Shown here piece after piece: positions 841 to 6,568 of a stretch of DNA of 6,568 bases. A program made the translations under genes and the position numbers. The notes under the pieces were generated by a model. It was given only the letters and a program-made list of their open reading frames with translations. It searched no databases and was not told where the DNA came from. Positions within the stretch are counted from its first letter, which is position 1. Each line of letters begins with the position of its first letter. This DNA comes from a bacterium (GTDB lineage Bacteria > Blakebacterota > Blakebacteria > Blakebacterales > Blakebacteraceae). The stretch lies in assembly GCA_025774205.1 (NCBI GenBank), contig JALGWK010000142.1:1-6568 (forward strand), in the 5' to 3' direction.

Positions 841-1250
841 TCAGTCGTAGTTGAGGGCCCGTACCGGATCGATCCGGGTCACACGGCGACCTCTTCGAAT
901 GCCTCGACCTGCTCCCGCCGGGCGAAATAGTCGGGCACCGCGCAACCGAGCCTGGTGGCCTGGGCCCGGGGGTAGAGATTGAACACGATAACCAGTCGGT
1001 CCGGTAAATAGTCGGGCACCGCGCAACCGAGCCTGGTGGCCTGGGCCCGGGGGTAGAGATTGAACACGATAACCAGTCGGTCCGGTTCCTCGTAGGGGAG
1101 GGGCCTCAGCATGAGGGTGTTCACGACACTGAAGATGGCGCTGTTGGCGCCGATACAGAGCGCCAGTGTAAGCAGGGCCGTGACCGTAAAGCCGCGCTCC
1201 TTCATCAGCAGCTTCAGGCTGATTTTCAGATTCTGTCGCAGCGTGTCCAT
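841..1250 (-). pseudogene. Remnant of an ADOP-family (MacB/FtsX-like) ABC transporter permease, internally deleted and frameshifted
   Basis: From ATG 1250 the frame reads like the N-terminus of Acidobacterial duplicated orphan permeases. It has 'MDTLRQNLKISLKLLMKERG', a hydrophobic membrane segment with 'TLALCIGANSAIFSVVN' (about residues 24-45), then 'LRPLPYEEPDRLV', 'VPDYFARR' and 'AFEEVAV'. It stops at 879-881. The family is about 800-880 residues long with two MacB_PCD/FtsX halves; only about 95 original codons remain here. Directly after that stop, in another frame, bases 841-888 encode 'RRVTRIDPVRALNYD' and a stop, which is the family's typical C-terminal tail. The first and last pieces of the gene are therefore kept and the ~2 kb middle is gone. 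The remnant also contains an 81-base tandem duplication. No good Shine-Dalgarno site precedes the ATG. A functional transporter is not possible from this piece. The alternative is an assembly misjoin between paralogues, which ADOP-rich genomes invite. Confidence 0.85.
925..1086. repeat. Perfect 81-bp direct tandem duplication (two copies)
   Basis: Bases 925-1005 and 1006-1086 are identical over all 81 positions; the flanking bases differ, so the unit boundaries are exact. The unit is 27 codons long and repeats the segment 'PDRLVIVFNLYPRAQA...PDY' in frame within the ADOP permease remnant. One copy is expected in an intact family member; the join gives 'PDYLPDRLV' instead of 'PDYFARRE'. Absence of any divergence means a recent event or an assembly artefact. 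Confidence 0.97.
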
Positions 1251-1380: not shown

Positions 1381-1530
1381 CTATGGTTCTGATGAGAACG
1401 CTTCCTGGAGGAAACCGATCACACCGTCGATAGCCACCATTGAATCCTGCAGGGTGGTGTCGATCTGTTCCATGATCCTGGCGGGATCGCTCAGTTCGGG
1501 ACGACGGCTCCGCTCCGGCGGAAAATCGTA
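1381..1530 (-). other. Displaced C-terminal coding segment of the nucleotidyltransferase (frameshifted tail)
   Basis: The main frame ends in 'RIGTIFRRSGAVVPN', which does not look like this family. Reading one base back from the glycine codon at about 1530-1532 gives 'YDFPPERSRRPELSDPARI' and then an amphipathic helix including 'MEQIDTTLQDSMVAIDGV' and 'FLQEAFSSEP', ending at TAG 1381-1383. This adds about 49 residues. The equivalent place in module 1 of the same protein reads 'LADKLGYEA' followed by a long helix ('LIIDYARGVREARKFSEFI'), so 'RIGYDF' plus helix is the expected structure. The simplest explanation is one missing base near 1529-1532; an extra T in the T4 run at 1522-1525 would also restore the frame. 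It could be a real mutation or a sequencing error. No classical slippery heptamer is present, so programmed frameshifting is unlikely. Confidence 0.7.
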
Positions 1531-4370
1531 CCGATCCGGGTCAGGTAGTCGGGATCGATTGTGTCTTCGGCGGCTACGGTGATGCGATAGAGATCGCGGA
1601 TCGTCCTGAGGTAGTAAAGGGAAGCGCTCAGGGTATCGAGTTCATCGGCGATCACCGGGAGTTCCGGCCTGATCCAGTGGAACAGATCCTGGGTCAGGGG
1701 CGCATGGATCCCCAGGTACGCCTTCAGCATCAGCGCGACCGCCTCGATGTCGCGCAGACCGCCGGCGGCCTCCTTCAGATTACAGCCGTCTTCTTCACAC
1801 GTCCCGGTGATGTACTGGCGGTTCCGCACCTCGACCACCATCCGGGTGATATACTCGCGCTTCCTGGAGATCGCGAACCGGTCGAGGATCTGGGAGTTGA
1901 TCGTCGTCCGCATCCTCTCGGACCCCACGATGAGCCTCGATCCGAGCAGTTGCGAGAGGTCGATGAAGTTCTCATCATCATCCGATTCCAGGTAGGCGAT
2001 CACCTGTGACATCGGATTTACGAAGCCGTCCAGTATCTCGCCCAGCCGGTACTGGGGCAGCAGACCCCGCTTGAGGATCTCACGGTTCATCTTCGTCATG
2101 ACCCGGGTGGCATACCGGAGCACGTCCTCGTCATCGGTGTCGACCAGGGCAATGATGTCGTAATCATCGTCGTAGGCCTGTTCACGGGCGTGGCCCCCCG
2201 CGGCCAGGACAGCGAACCGGTCGGTGCTGGGCGGCTCGCTGTCGCTCTCCCGCCTCACCTCCTCGAGGCAGACATCGTAGAGCTTCCGCATGTAGTTGTC
2301 GCAGAATTCGGTGAATTCGCTGTTGGTGGTCCTCAGGTCGGTTCCCCGCATGGTCCCCAGGCCGATCCTGAGGAACTCGAGGTCGTAATACTCACCCAGC
2401 GCCCGTTTCTGATCGTTGAGCAGCGGATACACATCGGCCTGGGCGAGAAGCCCGATGGCTATCTCGTGGAGCTGTTGGGAATCGGTCAGGTGGTTCAGGT
2501 ATTCGGGGTGACTGGCGATGACCCGGGAGAAGAACCTGCCGAAGTAGTGTCCTGACCATTCATGGACTTCGCAGAGGCTGCGGAGCCGCTGCAGTGGTTC
2601 CTCGAGGTTCTCGTCTGCGATCGGACGGTTCATGATCCGGAAGAAGAAGGCAAAATCGGCTTCCGGCAGGTGTTCGAGGAACTCATGGATGTACTGGGGG
2701 TAGCGAGTGAAGATCTTGGAGAGTCTCTCCGTTCCGTACGGCAGCTGCTCAAGTTTCTCCAGGAAGAGGTGTGACATGCGGGCAGCAACGGTATCGCCCA
2801 GGACGTTCTCCTGTCTCTTCCACAGGATGGTGATCAGCCTCATCAGGGAGATCGGGGAGTGGGGAGCCCACTCGGTGTATTCGTCGATGACCTGATTCCT
2901 GCTCTCCTCGTTGAGCGCTTCGAGACTGTCGATGAATCCGATCTGGAGTTCCTGATCCTCCGCCAGCCGGATGAGCACATCCTCCCAGTACCGGGTGCCC
3001 CTGAAGAAGCGGGCGCCCTCAATGAACTCCTTCGCGAACGAGCTTGCCGGCCGCGCCGCTCTGTCCGCCGGCTCCTGTGCTCCGTCCCGCTGGAACATGC
3101 CCCGGAAGATCGAGATCGAACTGAGGTGGGTGGTGATGTCGTCGACTATGAACTCGGAGAACTTCCTGGCCTCCCTGACCCCCCGGGCGTAGTCGATGAT
3201 CAGCTGATCCCAGGCGCTGACGGCGCCGATCGCCTCGTAACCAAGTTTGTCCGCCAGCTGGAGGCGCAGTTCAGGCGTTATCTCCTCCAGCCGGAAGGCC
3301 TCCTCCTGGGCAACGTACATCTGGAGCTGGAATTTCAGGATCTCCAGGAAGGACGTTATCCGGGAGATCGTCTCGTATAGTGAAGCATGATGCGGTTCCT
3401 TTATTTGGAGGGCGCCGATGATGTCCCAGGCGTTCACCTCCTCCAGACCGTAGATGACCTTCTTGGCGGCCAGGACCGCCTTGATGATCCGGAGGCCGTC
3501 CTGCTTCGGAGAGATGGTATCTGACGCCAGCGGAGACAGGAACTGGGCCCGGGCCTCTCCCAGGATCCCCCGCAGGAAACCTTCATGATATCGGATATCC
3601 CACTCGGGATCGTAGTAATAGCGGGAGGTCACCTGGTCGTGGAACTCCCAGAAGAGCGATTCTCCACCCAGGATGAATCTCGATCCGATCAGCTCGGAGA
3701 TGATGACCATGTCCCGGATCTCCGGCTCCAGATGCGTGACGTATTCCGAGATGGTCGAGGAGTAGAGGTGTTCGCCGATATGTTCCGACAGGTAGTGGTG
3801 GAGCGGTGTCGCGTAGATCATCATGTCACGGGACACGTCCCGCAGGGCCTGATTGATCGCCGTGATATCAGCATCGTCCTTCGTCACGACACCGACATCG
3901 ATGTCATCCTGGTCAGCTCTGGTACCCACTCCGCAGATGAAGAAATCTCCCCGGTTCCAACCGGGCAGATAGAGGTCGAGCAGGGTCTTCAGGTACGCCT
4001 TCGAGAGGTGACGGAAATCGCTCCCCACGTTCATCATGAACTGCTGGTAGACCGTCTCGACCATGTTGGCCGAGGATATCCCCATGGTGAGGATGTCCTG
4101 GTGACGGAAGTTCATGTGGAGGAACTGCAGGGCGTAGTAGCAGCTCACGTGCCTGACGTTCACCTGCGGCTCGTCGCTCAGACCGACGATGATCGCCATC
4201 TCCTCTTCTACATGACTGCTCGAGGTCCAGAGGTGGACCTTCATCAGGTTCCCGCTCGATTCGAGGGTGTCGAGGAGGGAGTCGAGATGCTGCTTCAGGA
4301 CGTGGATGTATTTCTGGTGATGGTTGGCGAGGGTGGCGACGCGCGCTTCGAGGGCCGGCAGGGAATCCAT
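1491..4370 (-). CDS. Tandem two-module nucleotidyltransferase, GlnD/GlnE-related (premature stop probably due to a frameshift)
   Basis: A 959-residue frame with two copies of a polymerase-beta-fold nucleotidyltransferase unit. Module 1: 'GVGTRADQDDIDVG' (residues 147-160; G-x-G and carboxylates D156, D158), 'ELIGSRFILGGESLF' (226-240), then a degenerate 'KQDGLRIIKAV' (289-299). Module 2: 'GGHAREQAYDDDYDII' (725-740; GG, R729, carboxylates D736, D738), 'QLLGSRLIVGSERM' (807-820), then 'NLKEAAGGLRDIEAV' (864-878), very like the KEGPGGLRDIQ block of GlnD. Between them lies a helical stretch (about 455-660) with 'FTRYPQYIHEFLEHL' and 'IASHPEYLNHL', recalling the helices between the two GlnE domains. 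The ~130 residues before module 1 are not recognised. No HD phosphohydrolase or ACT domain is present, and there is no room for them, so it is not ordinary GlnD. It is probably a soluble cytoplasmic enzyme that transfers a nucleotidyl group to a protein; donor and target are unknown. ATG 4370 is chosen because GGGAG lies 10 bases upstream. It sits 17 bases after korC. The C-terminus appears to continue in another frame to 1381. Confidence 0.8.
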   Translation of the reverse strand: MDSLPALEARVATLANHHQKYIHVLKQHLDSLLDTLESSGNLMKVHLWTSSSHVEEEMAIIVGLSDEPQVNVRHVSCYYALQFLHMNFRHQDILTMGISSANMVETVYQQFMMNVGSDFRHLSKAYLKTLLDLYLPGWNRGDFFICGVGTRADQDDIDVGVVTKDDADITAINQALRDVSRDMMIYATPLHHYLSEHIGEHLYSSTISEYVTHLEPEIRDMVIISELIGSRFILGGESLFWEFHDQVTSRYYYDPEWDIRYHEGFLRGILGEARAQFLSPLASDTISPKQDGLRIIKAVLAAKKVIYGLEEVNAWDIIGALQIKEPHHASLYETISRITSFLEILKFQLQMYVAQEEAFRLEEITPELRLQLADKLGYEAIGAVSAWDQLIIDYARGVREARKFSEFIVDDITTHLSSISIFRGMFQRDGAQEPADRAARPASSFAKEFIEGARFFRGTRYWEDVLIRLAEDQELQIGFIDSLEALNEESRNQVIDEYTEWAPHSPISLMRLITILWKRQENVLGDTVAARMSHLFLEKLEQLPYGTERLSKIFTRYPQYIHEFLEHLPEADFAFFFRIMNRPIADENLEEPLQRLRSLCEVHEWSGHYFGRFFSRVIASHPEYLNHLTDSQQLHEIAIGLLAQADVYPLLNDQKRALGEYYDLEFLRIGLGTMRGTDLRTTNSEFTEFCDNYMRKLYDVCLEEVRRESDSEPPSTDRFAVLAAGGHAREQAYDDDYDIIALVDTDDEDVLRYATRVMTKMNREILKRGLLPQYRLGEILDGFVNPMSQVIAYLESDDDENFIDLSQLLGSRLIVGSERMRTTINSQILDRFAISRKREYITRMVVEVRNRQYITGTCEEDGCNLKEAAGGLRDIEAVALMLKAYLGIHAPLTQDLFHWIRPELPVIADELDTLSASLYYLRTIRDLYRITVAAEDTIDPDYLTRIGTIFRRSGAVVPN

Positions 4371-4380
4371 GCTGGATCGT

Positions 4381-4385
4381 CTCCC
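4381..4385 (-). promoter_or_regulatory. Shine-Dalgarno site of the nucleotidyltransferase gene
   Basis: GGGAG on the minus strand, 10 bases before ATG 4370 and just beyond the TGA of korC (4388-4390). It supports ATG 4370 as the start and reinitiation after korC within one transcript. Confidence 0.6.
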
Positions 4386-4387
4386 GC

Positions 4388-4930
4388 TCAGGTGGACCTG
4401 ATCAGTTCCTGACCCGTCCGGAATGCCTTGATGTTCATCTCTTCGGTGCCCTTCGGTACCCTGGCCCGGATAGCGTTGATCACTGCTTCGTCGGAAATGA
4501 TCCCCGCCAGTTCGGTGATGACACCCAGGGCGACAAGGTTGGCCACGATCTTTTTGCCGATCCGCTCTTCGGCGATGTTGGTGATCGGGAATCCGTGACC
4601 GGTGAAATCACCTTCGGGGGGGGCATGCACGAAGCCTGTATCCATGACGATGGTGCCGCCCGGCTTGATCTCCCCCGAGTACTTGTCGGCCGCCTCCTGG
4701 GTCATGGCCAGCAGAAGATCGATGTCGGTGGCCTTGGGGTAGTCGATGTCGCCGTCACTGATGATCACTTCCGACCGGCTCGCGCCTCCCCGGGCTTCCG
4801 GCCCGTACGACTGGCTCTGGGTGGCGTTCTTGTCCTCGTAGATCGCGGCCGCTTCGGCGATGATCTTCCCGATCAGGATGAGGCCCTGGCCTCCGGCACC
4901 GCTTAATCGGATCTCGTAACGGAAACTCAT
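4388..4930 (-). CDS. korC: 2-oxoacid:ferredoxin oxidoreductase, gamma subunit (KorC type)
   Basis: A 180-residue protein covering a complete POR_gamma domain (PF01558 type). Near the N-terminus is 'GAGGQGLILIGKIIAEAA' (residues 11-28), the glycine-rich block of this subunit, followed by the family hallmark 'SYGPEARGGASRSEVIIS' (41-58). Further on are 'DIDLLLAMTQEAADKY' and 'NLVALGVITELAGIIS', both typical. The gamma subunit joins KorA and KorB and contributes to the CoA-binding side of the enzyme that makes or cleaves acyl-CoA with ferredoxin. The frame can be extended to GTG 4933, but GGGAG at 4937-4941 is only 3 bases from that codon and 6 from ATG 4930, so ATG 4930 is preferred. It lies 22 bases after korB and 17 bases before the nucleotidyltransferase gene. 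Residues 'HAPPEG' are encoded across a run of eight C (G at 4616-4623 on the + strand); the frame is intact. The substrate is most likely 2-oxoglutarate, but other 2-oxoacids cannot be excluded. Confidence 0.93.
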   Translation of the reverse strand: MSFRYEIRLSGAGGQGLILIGKIIAEAAAIYEDKNATQSQSYGPEARGGASRSEVIISDGDIDYPKATDIDLLLAMTQEAADKYSGEIKPGGTIVMDTGFVHAPPEGDFTGHGFPITNIAEERIGKKIVANLVALGVITELAGIISDEAVINAIRARVPKGTEEMNIKAFRTGQELIRST

Positions 4931-4936
4931 CACGCT

Positions 4937-4941
4937 CTCCC
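4937..4941 (-). promoter_or_regulatory. Shine-Dalgarno site deciding the korC start
   Basis: GGGAG inside a purine-rich stretch on the minus strand. The spacing is 6 bases to ATG 4930 and only 3 bases to the in-frame GTG at 4933, so it favours the ATG. Confidence 0.6.
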
Positions 4942-4952
4942 TCTGCTGAAAC

Positions 4953-5759
4953 TCACTGCGCGGCCCGCGCGATAGCTGCGTTATACGATTCGATGTATTC
5001 GGGGATATCGCGGTCGACCAGAACGCCGATCACGGTCTTCCCATCCAGTTCTTCCGGGGTCATCTTCTCGGCCTTCGCCACCCGCACTGCCGTTTCCTTC
5101 TGATCGAGGATCATATCCGCCCCGGTGCCCTTCTTGTTCAGCTTCCCGTAAGCGGTCGGGCAGGGGGCCAGAACCTCGATCAGCGAAAAGCCCTTCTTCT
5201 CCATGCCCTTCTTGATCAGGTCGCCGAGCAGTTTGGCGTGGAAAGCGGTGCAGCGGGCGACGTAGGCGGCTCCGGCCGCGATCACCAGGCCTGAGATATC
5301 GAAAGTGTTCTCGATTGCCCCGTATGGAGCAGTTGTTCCGATGTCACCTATCGGGGTGGTCGGTGAGGCCTGACCACCGGTCATCCCGTAGATGTGGTTG
5401 TTATAGAGGACCACCGTCATGTCGATGTTCCGCCGGGCGGCGTGGATCAGGTGGTTGCCGCCGATCGCGGTCGCGTCCCCGTCACCGGTGACGACGATCA
5501 CGGTCATGTCGGGTCGGGCCATCTTCAGCCCGGTGGCGTAGGTGAGCGGTCGCCCGTGGGTAGTGTGGAGCGTGTTGAAGTCGACATATCCGGTCGTCCG
5601 GCTCGAGCAGCCGATACCGGAGACCATGGCGATGTCATCCTGGGCGATCTCGAGTTCGTCGATCGCTCGCAGGATGGCCTTGAGCGCGACACCCGCCCCG
5701 CAGCCGGAACACCAGATGTGGGGGAAGTTGTCGGTGCGCAGGTACTTCTGGTAATCCAT
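4953..5759 (-). CDS. korB: 2-oxoacid:ferredoxin oxidoreductase, beta subunit (KorB type, thiamine diphosphate and 4Fe-4S binding)
   Basis: A 268-residue protein of the usual KorB length. Thiamine diphosphate and Mg2+ binding is shown by the 'GDGDATAIGGNHLIHA' block (residues 92-107), ending in 'VVLYNNHIYGMTGGQ' (116-130), where the NN and the following residues complete the motif. Four cysteines fit the proximal [4Fe-4S] cluster of this family: C17 and C20 in 'WCSGCG', C51 in 'GIGCSSR' and C200 in 'APCPTAYG'. 'HTTHGRPLTYATGLK' (65-79) is the conserved block before the cofactor motif. The subunit binds thiamine diphosphate, decarboxylates the 2-oxoacid with KorA, and passes electrons to ferredoxin; no ferredoxin domain is fused. 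The frame could start at GTG 5771, but AAGGAG (5771-5776) overlaps that codon, and 'MDYQKYLRTDNFPHIWCSGC' is the normal N-terminus, so ATG 5759 is chosen. Only 2 bases separate it from the korA stop, suggesting translational coupling. Confidence 0.94.
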   Translation of the reverse strand: MDYQKYLRTDNFPHIWCSGCGAGVALKAILRAIDELEIAQDDIAMVSGIGCSSRTTGYVDFNTLHTTHGRPLTYATGLKMARPDMTVIVVTGDGDATAIGGNHLIHAARRNIDMTVVLYNNHIYGMTGGQASPTTPIGDIGTTAPYGAIENTFDISGLVIAAGAAYVARCTAFHAKLLGDLIKKGMEKKGFSLIEVLAPCPTAYGKLNKKGTGADMILDQKETAVRVAKAEKMTPEELDGKTVIGVLVDRDIPEYIESYNAAIARAAQ

Positions 5760-5761
5760 CG

Positions 5762-6568
5762 CTAGCGGCACTCCTTGATCTTCTGCGCGATCTCTGCGGG
5801 CGGTATCGGATCACCTGTAATTTTGTTGACCCGGATGACTTCCGCCTCGCCGCGGGCGGCGTGTTCCACCTCGTGGGCGATCTGCCCCAGGTTGAGTTCC
5901 GGAACCACCAGGTGCGAGACCTGGCCTGCCAATTCCCTGATCCGTTCGGTCGGGAAGGGCCACATCGTCTGGATCCTGAGCATGCCCACGGGGATGCCCT
6001 GGTCACGCGTTTCCCGCATCGCCTGCCGCGCCGAACGGGCGCTCGATCCGTAACAGATGATCACGATCTCCGCGTCTCCGGTCTCGGTCTCCTCGAACTG
6101 GATGATCTCATCGGCGTAGTGATCGAGTTTGCCGTGCAGCCGGTTCAGCATCGCTTCGATCTTCCCCGAGTCCATGGTCGGGAATCCGGTCTGGTCGTGC
6201 ACGAGCCCGGTCACGTGATACCGGTAGCCCTCACCGAAGTTGGCCATGGCCGGGATCATCGAAGCCTCATTCTCGTAGGGGAGGTACTCCTCCGGAGAAA
6301 CCGAGGGTTTCTTGCGGTCGATGATCTCCAGTTCCGACGGGTCGGGCAGGGTCACCTTCTCATGGACGTGACCGATGATCTCGTCCAGCAGCAGGATCAC
6401 CGGGACCCGGAACCGTTCGGAGAAGTTGAAGGCCTGGATGGTCATGTCGAAGGCTTCCCGCACCCCCGCGGGAGTCAGTACGATGATCGGGTGATCGCCG
6501 TGGGTTCCCCAGCGGGCCTGCATGACGTCCCCCTGGGAGGGAAGGGTGGGGATGCCGGTGCTCGGACC
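5762..6568 (-). CDS. korA: 2-oxoacid:ferredoxin oxidoreductase, alpha subunit (KorA type), 3' part
   Basis: The frame ends at TAG 5762-5764 and stays open to the right edge, so the N-terminal part of the gene is missing. The visible 268 residues begin with 'GPSTGIPTLPSQGDVMQARW' followed by 'GTHGDHPIIVLTP', the most conserved block of KorA proteins. An ATG at 6523 falls inside this block and is not the start. Further on come 'VPVILLLDEIIGHVHEKV', 'YHVTGLVHDQTGFPT', 'IICYGSSARSARQAM', a C-terminal transketolase-like segment 'GMLRIQTMWPFPTERIRELA', and 'VPELNLGQIAHEVE' near the end. Full KorA is about 350-390 residues, so roughly 100 are outside. The alpha subunit supplies the pyrimidine-side thiamine fold and substrate pocket to the complex with KorB and KorC. 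It is the first gene of the visible operon; its promoter, and possibly a ferredoxin-like korD, would lie beyond the window. Confidence 0.94.
   Translation of the reverse strand, partial: GPSTGIPTLPSQGDVMQARWGTHGDHPIIVLTPAGVREAFDMTIQAFNFSERFRVPVILLLDEIIGHVHEKVTLPDPSELEIIDRKKPSVSPEEYLPYENEASMIPAMANFGEGYRYHVTGLVHDQTGFPTMDSGKIEAMLNRLHGKLDHYADEIIQFEETETGDAEIVIICYGSSARSARQAMRETRDQGIPVGMLRIQTMWPFPTERIRELAGQVSHLVVPELNLGQIAHEVEHAARGEAEVIRVNKITGDPIPPAEIAQKIKECR
5771..5776 (-). promoter_or_regulatory. Shine-Dalgarno site of korB, inside the 3' end of korA
   Basis: AAGGAG on the minus strand lies within the last codons of korA, 11 bases before ATG 5759. It overlaps the alternative GTG at 5769-5771, which rules that codon out as the start. 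Confidence 0.6.

Follow-up and report, generated by a model that had tools for sequence, protein, structure and literature searches.

A GlnE-Type Double Nucleotidyltransferase Family Genetically Linked to the Gamma Subunit of 2-Oxoglutarate-Type Ferredoxin Oxidoreductase

INTRODUCTION

What is a two-module nucleotidyltransferase doing as the fourth gene of an operon for a 2-oxoglutarate-type 2-oxoacid:ferredoxin oxidoreductase (KOR)? The textbook two-headed protein-AMPylating switch is GlnE, and glutamine synthetase is the one GlnE target that we know of. A sequence-only reading of the locus had called the fourth gene product a GlnD-like double nucleotidyltransferase and had suggested that it ties KOR to nitrogen control, its substrate being KOR itself, a PII-like protein, or glutamine synthetase. 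Here, we describe the protein, its relatives, and their genomic surroundings, and we weigh these possibilities against others.

RESULTS AND DISCUSSION

The kor operon and its fourth gene

The window, i.e., the whole stretch of DNA that was analyzed, is one contig of 6568 bases (G000:C417) from a draft genome that is 86% complete. Its minus strand carries a partial korA, korB, korC, and the double nucleotidyltransferase gene, with 2 bases between the first two genes, 22 between the next two, and 17 between the last two. A purine-rich ribosome-binding-type site precedes each gene other than korA. The gene order, gaps, and sites had been read correctly from the sequence, and all coordinates that we checked were right. 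The features are as follows.

5762..6568, minus strand: korA, alpha subunit of 2-oxoacid (2-oxoglutarate-type):ferredoxin oxidoreductase (POR_N, PFOR_II; PRK08659, E 3e-106)
4953..5759, minus strand: korB, TPP-binding beta subunit, from its ATG (TPP_enzyme_C)
4388..4930, minus strand: korC, gamma subunit (POR, PF01558, E 8e-36)
4381..4385, minus strand: GGGAG, ribosome-binding-type site of the double nucleotidyltransferase gene, 10 bases before its ATG, read from the sequence
1491..4370, minus strand: GlnE-like double nucleotidyltransferase, 959 amino acids

Because the contig ends within it, korA is truncated at its 5' end and lacks about the first 110 residues (the protein of a same-genus relative has 377 amino acids); whatever precedes korA lies beyond the contig end. 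The alpha, beta, and gamma subunits are encoded together in one operon, as in KorABC/OorABC, and Pfam and NCBIfam assign them to the 2-oxoglutarate/2-oxoacid type. Their best NCBIfam matches are 2-oxoglutarate or general 2-oxoacid equivalogs, all below the respective cut-offs; KorB scores 302 bits against the 2-oxoglutarate ferredoxin oxidoreductase beta subunit PRK09628 (cut-off 364), and KorC scores 214.8 bits against PRK08537 (cut-off 235). Relatives elsewhere adjoin SucCD-like genes (suc was named from sequence by eye). Promoter and terminator scans gave matches at chance level only.

In the remainder of the window, the contig end truncates a serine beta-lactamase-family protein (PF00144), of which the C-terminal part is left (positions 1 to 831), and there is a short MacB/FtsX-like permease open reading frame (879 to 1250, minus strand), apparently a broken gene. 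Within the latter lies a perfect 81-bp tandem duplication (925 to 1086; two copies, 100%), which is either real or an assembly artifact.

The 959-residue protein is of the GlnE type

In Pfam searches, the protein gives two GlnD_UR_UTase stretches and nothing else; HD and ACT domains are absent, and there is no match to PF03710 (GlnE). Its halves, residues 105 to 430 and 650 to 955, are homologous to each other (hhalign probability 99.7%, E 6e-26). An AlphaFold2 model built from 74 relatives (pLDDT 91.3, pTM 0.85) consists of two nucleotidyltransferase halves linked by a helical middle. Foldseek returned four chains at an E value of <0.001, comprising both Escherichia coli GlnE halves and DrrA. 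By VIA-align, the C-terminal part aligns with the GlnE N half (1V4A; Z 28.6, rmsd 3.9, 358 aligned residues) and the GlnE C half (3K7D; Z 28.0, rmsd 6.0, 389 aligned), and the N-terminal part aligns with the AMPylase DrrA (6YX5; Z 22.1, rmsd 4.3, 308 aligned). These three are the only strong PDB structure matches of the model; AadA-type small-molecule adenylyltransferases match one half at a Z score of about 8. When the sequence profile was searched against the PDB, the GlnE halves alone were found at an E value of <0.001.

Because of these structure and profile matches, the homologous halves, and the lack of HD and ACT domains, we assign the protein to the GlnE plan. GlnD identity was rejected: besides lacking HD and ACT domains, the protein continues as a second nucleotidyltransferase module up to residue 959 and scores 34.9 bits against the GlnD NCBIfam model (cut-off 519.4). 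Its best GlnE NCBIfam score is 25.8 bits (cut-off 724). Thus, the protein is GlnE type and not GlnD type, and it represents a previously undescribed family of its own. Of the earlier description, the two modules stand, whereas “GlnD-like” holds only for the shared nucleotidyltransferase domain. By analogy, the enzyme probably works like GlnE, although it fails GlnE membership by score and context. Neither the double nucleotidyltransferase, nor the 244-amino-acid protein described below, nor KorC had a match in PADLOC, and a defense system was rejected on this basis.

Both modules contain recognizable active-site elements, all on the minus strand.

3897..3932, minus strand: module 1 active-site loop GVGTRADQDDID, residues 147 to 158, with D156 and D158 invariant (74/74 sequences)
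3783..3785, minus strand: E196, invariant, likely third carboxylate of module 1 (aligned internally with residue 778)
3489..3506, minus strand: module 1 PKxxGLR motif (K289 and R294 invariant)
2157..2198, minus strand: module 2 active-site loop GGHAREQAYDDDYD, residues 725 to 738, with D736 and D738 invariant (74/74), aligning to the GlnE DxD
2037..2039, minus strand: E778, likely third carboxylate of module 2 (D or E in 68/74)
1743..1775, minus strand: module 2 KExxGGLRDIE motif, residues 866 to 876, a GlnD/GlnE signature that aligns with GlnE

In all 74 full-length sequences, D156, D158, E196, K289, and R294 of module 1 and D736, D738, K866, G870, G871, R873, and D874 of module 2 are invariant, so that the DxD pair is kept in both halves. 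E196 and residue 778 are the likely third carboxylates because the internal alignment superposes them. Deep relatives retain the acidic pattern as well (DQDDID/DQEDLD and NDYD/NDID/EDYD). Judged by motif, both nucleotidyltransferase active sites are thus intact in all 74 full-length relatives; from the invariant residues and the pattern kept in deep relatives, catalytic loss is unlikely, and the enzyme is presumably active. The loop GVGTRADQDDID of module 1 is shorter than the G-X11-D-X-D motif of the AMPylator SidM/DrrA (PMC12409994), which counts against the reading of the enzyme as a KOR switch.

At 18 loci, an extra single-domain nucleotidyltransferase (DUF6036 related, 244 to 251 amino acids) is encoded immediately ahead of the double nucleotidyltransferase and, at those loci with a linked korC, lies between the two genes (L029, 7227-7979; L037, 7264-7995; L092, 6805-7536; and 15 others). 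The presence of a third nucleotidyltransferase fits the idea that the locus serves nucleotidyl transfer above all.

Distribution of the family and its linkage to kor

A search that used one genome per species found relatives in at least 98 species genomes, of which 80 were retrieved; all 80 are titled as metagenome-assembled genomes. The carriers belong to Zixibacteria, KSB1, WOR-3/Stahlbacteria/TA06, Marinimicrobia, Calditrichota, Krumholzibacteria, and a few other groups, and they include a Gemmatimonadota chromosome. In a domain-wide sample, the enzyme is present in 19 of 386 genomes. Five deep relatives (L153, L160, L154, L165, and L157; 797 to 1011 amino acids) lie away from kor and keep the acid pairs.

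A korC gene lies upstream on the same strand at 61 of the 80 loci. The count is 53 of 66 when at least 1.5 kb of upstream sequence is available and 47 of 56 when at least 3.5 kb is. Carrier genomes have three to nine POR-gamma genes, and assuming six per 3 Mb, a neighbor on the same strand within 2.5 kb would be expected by chance at about 0.25 to 0.3% of loci. Because the linkage holds at 53/66 loci, persists down to 28% protein identity, and spans about seven phylum-level lineages, we rejected chance or close relationship as its explanation. The linkage of the double nucleotidyltransferase to kor is real and old, and the proposed tie to KOR is thereby upheld far beyond close relatives. In the domain-wide sample, most but not all carriers are kor linked, the deepest ones being unlinked. 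On a FastTree phylogeny of 86 sequences, whose deep forks are therefore soft, at least eight changes between kor-linked and unlinked states are needed. A KSB1/Calditrichota clade and the deepest relatives lie away from kor, which counts against the KOR-switch reading. In one clade, sdhABCD instead of kor is found beside the enzyme; at four loci of a KSB1/Calditrichota clade (L041, L084, L086, and L087), succinate dehydrogenase/fumarate reductase genes take the place of kor and are oriented divergently to the enzyme gene.

Of the KOR subunits, KorC accompanies the enzyme most consistently in gene order. In two separate clades, Zixibacteria/Krumholzibacteria and the distant pair L094/L097, the neighbor is a divergent stand-alone KorC, with no KorA or KorB on its strand. 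At many Zixibacteria/Krumholzibacteria loci, an Fd-KorABC-HdrA-type operon points away and HdrC/B-type genes converge. The two stand-alone-KorC genomes checked have a full KorABC elsewhere, beside succinyl-CoA-synthetase-like (sucCD-like) genes that were named by eye. Examples of divergent paralogues paired with the enzyme alone are found at L052 (7373-7921), L097 (7319-7888), and L032 (7402-7962). The stand-alone KorCs have drifted, some having lost the GxGGQG motif (GSSNHG in L032), and they keep most of AEAAAIYDxxNA...S(Y/F)G(P/E)E(A/S)R. As it is solely a divergent stand-alone KorC that stays adjacent in these two clades, KorC is the likeliest partner of the enzyme.

The same association appears in KorC subtypes. 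When the KorCs of 290 genomes were compared with that of the window, the 13 most similar ones (at least 58% identity) all came from carriers, four of which have the enzyme apart from kor. The co-occurrence of KorC subtype and enzyme gives a Fisher P value of 8e-21 without phylogenetic correction, and it partly reflects shared ancestry. Most KorC-bearing genomes in the domain-wide sample lack the enzyme. When KorCs of carriers were compared with close KorCs of noncarriers, no target residue stood out: A30, I31, and T38 alone differ and were not convincing as a modification site, and the tyrosine of SYGPEARGG occurs in noncarriers too.

Nitrogen control genes in carrier genomes

Genome content was assessed by family searches. 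Of 47 carriers, 33 have no PII, among them five of nine single-contig carrier chromosomes, while the same search was positive in 13 of 14 control genomes. GlnE was found in four of the 47 carriers (absent in 43/47), and a convincing GlnD was found in the same four; the remaining GlnD matches trace to HD or ACT domains in other proteins or to the double nucleotidyltransferase. All 26 carriers tested have genes of the glutamine synthetase family, the glutamine synthetase of most carriers being a short type without the adenylylation tyrosine motif. This motif (IYDL/IYDM) is restricted to GlnE-bearing genomes and three KSB1-type genomes. Thus, by genome content, the double nucleotidyltransferase is independent of PII, GlnD, and GlnE, and PII or glutamine synthetase was rejected as its general target. 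The suggested tie of KOR to nitrogen control falls with these absences.

The three KSB1-type genomes (G078, G091, and G093; loci L105, L107, and L104) have PII and an IYDM glutamine synthetase and no recognizable GlnE or GlnD, and their enzymes belong to a clade that is unlinked to kor. In these genomes, it is possible that the enzyme acts as a surrogate in nitrogen control.

The window's genome carries its own nitrogen control genes: contig 466 has glnA-glnD, contig 184 has the end of glnE next to the 3' part of glnD, and contig 64 has a further portion of glnE and a PII gene. Both glnD and glnE, whose presence elsewhere in the genome, together with a lack of nucleotidyl transfer activity, had been named beforehand as evidence against the sequence-only reading, therefore exist, each split over contigs. 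In a same-genus relative, glnA-glnD-glnE form one cluster with PII beside it. The GlnE search of the window's genome was positive for the true GlnE only, which is separate from the double nucleotidyltransferase. The presence of glnD and glnE elsewhere speaks against the nitrogen reading and not against a KOR-specific enzyme.

Proposed function and alternatives

Of the substrates proposed earlier, KOR itself is the best remaining idea because of the KOR linkage and the two complete active sites. We infer that the double nucleotidyltransferase would reversibly modify the 2-oxoglutarate-type KOR by adding a nucleotide, AMP being the likeliest, and taking it off again; KorC would be the subunit that is modified or to which the enzyme docks. 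GlnE has two homologous domains, opposite in activity, and a central domain that joins them (PMC12409994). By analogy, attachment and removal of the nucleotide would fall to different modules, and the signal would be sensed by the helical middle. That this GlnE-type enzyme reversibly nucleotidylates KOR by way of KorC is, in our estimate, evenly poised between right and wrong. The wider proposal, that uncultured phyla possess a second bacterial GlnE-type switch that would nucleotidylate KorC (or a KorC-paralogue adaptor) without PII, GlnD, or GlnE, falls somewhat short of that.

The main rival is a factor for the assembly, maturation, or holding of KOR, whose domains would sense a nucleotide or modify KorC only once. 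The tight pairing with KorC, which extends to divergent stand-alone copies including the one at L032 without GxGGQG, would suit such a role, as would the shortened loop of module 1. However, the invariance of all catalytic-type residues in both modules is unusual for a pure scaffold, and the many KorC genomes without the enzyme imply that KOR as such has no need of it; we consider this explanation unlikely, if less so than the two that follow. One of these is that a GlnD/GlnE surrogate acting on PII or glutamine synthetase is merely cotranscribed with kor. Its GlnE fold and the gene content of the three KSB1-type genomes speak for it, but it is improbable given the carriers without PII (five of them single-contig chromosomes), the short glutamine synthetases in which the site is missing, and a window genome already equipped with glnA, glnD, glnE, and glnB elsewhere.

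No more probable is a role in modifying a small molecule, a CoA-like cofactor, or RNA, with the kor linkage indicating a shared pathway only. This would accommodate the AadA-type match to one half (Z about 8), and the sdhABCD-adjacent clade fits a general link to the tricarboxylic acid (TCA) cycle; yet the protein-modifying GlnE and DrrA match far better (Z 22-29), and the pairing is specific to KorC, not KorA or KorB. Modification of KOR through KorC is thus the reading that we carry forward, and the double nucleotidyltransferase and KorC are a concrete protein pair for testing.

Comparison with known systems

With GlnD, the PII uridylyltransferase, the 959-residue protein shares a GlnD_UR_UTase domain next to the nucleotidyltransferase core. 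GlnD, however, has one nucleotidyltransferase, an HD domain, and two ACT domains, whereas the protein described here has two modules and neither HD nor ACT domains. DrrA/SidM, which shares the fold, AMPylates tyrosine (PMC12409994), and it resembles the N half of the double nucleotidyltransferase (6YX5, Z 22.1 over 308 residues); it differs in being a single-module, secreted effector that acts on Rab1, and there is no sequence relation beyond the fold. The KOR subunits of the window are members of the 2-oxoglutarate:ferredoxin oxidoreductase family (OorABC/KorABC), for which we found no GlnE-type enzyme or nucleotidyl switch in the literature searched.

GlnE is the closest system. It provides the strongest fold and sequence match, and the two enzymes have in common two homologous halves, a K-x-x-x-GG-x-R-D-I-E module, a helical middle, and a length of about 950 residues. 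The differences are that the double nucleotidyltransferase scores below the curated GlnE cut-offs and adjoins korC instead of glnA or glnB. Its carriers mostly lack PII, GlnD, and GlnE, whereas the window's genome has a separate GlnE; likewise, most carriers do not combine PII with a glutamine synthetase that has the tyrosine motif, and the window's genome has both. If our proposal is true, a GlnE-type device also controls the TCA cycle at its ferredoxin-linked 2-oxoglutarate step, and it does so in phyla for which metagenomes are nearly the sole source of knowledge. Our findings suggest that the enzyme converting 2-oxoglutarate to succinyl-CoA is switched there by reversible nucleotide tagging, outside the known nitrogen control system. 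What is new relative to GlnE itself is a GlnE-type enzyme with a new partner, KorC.
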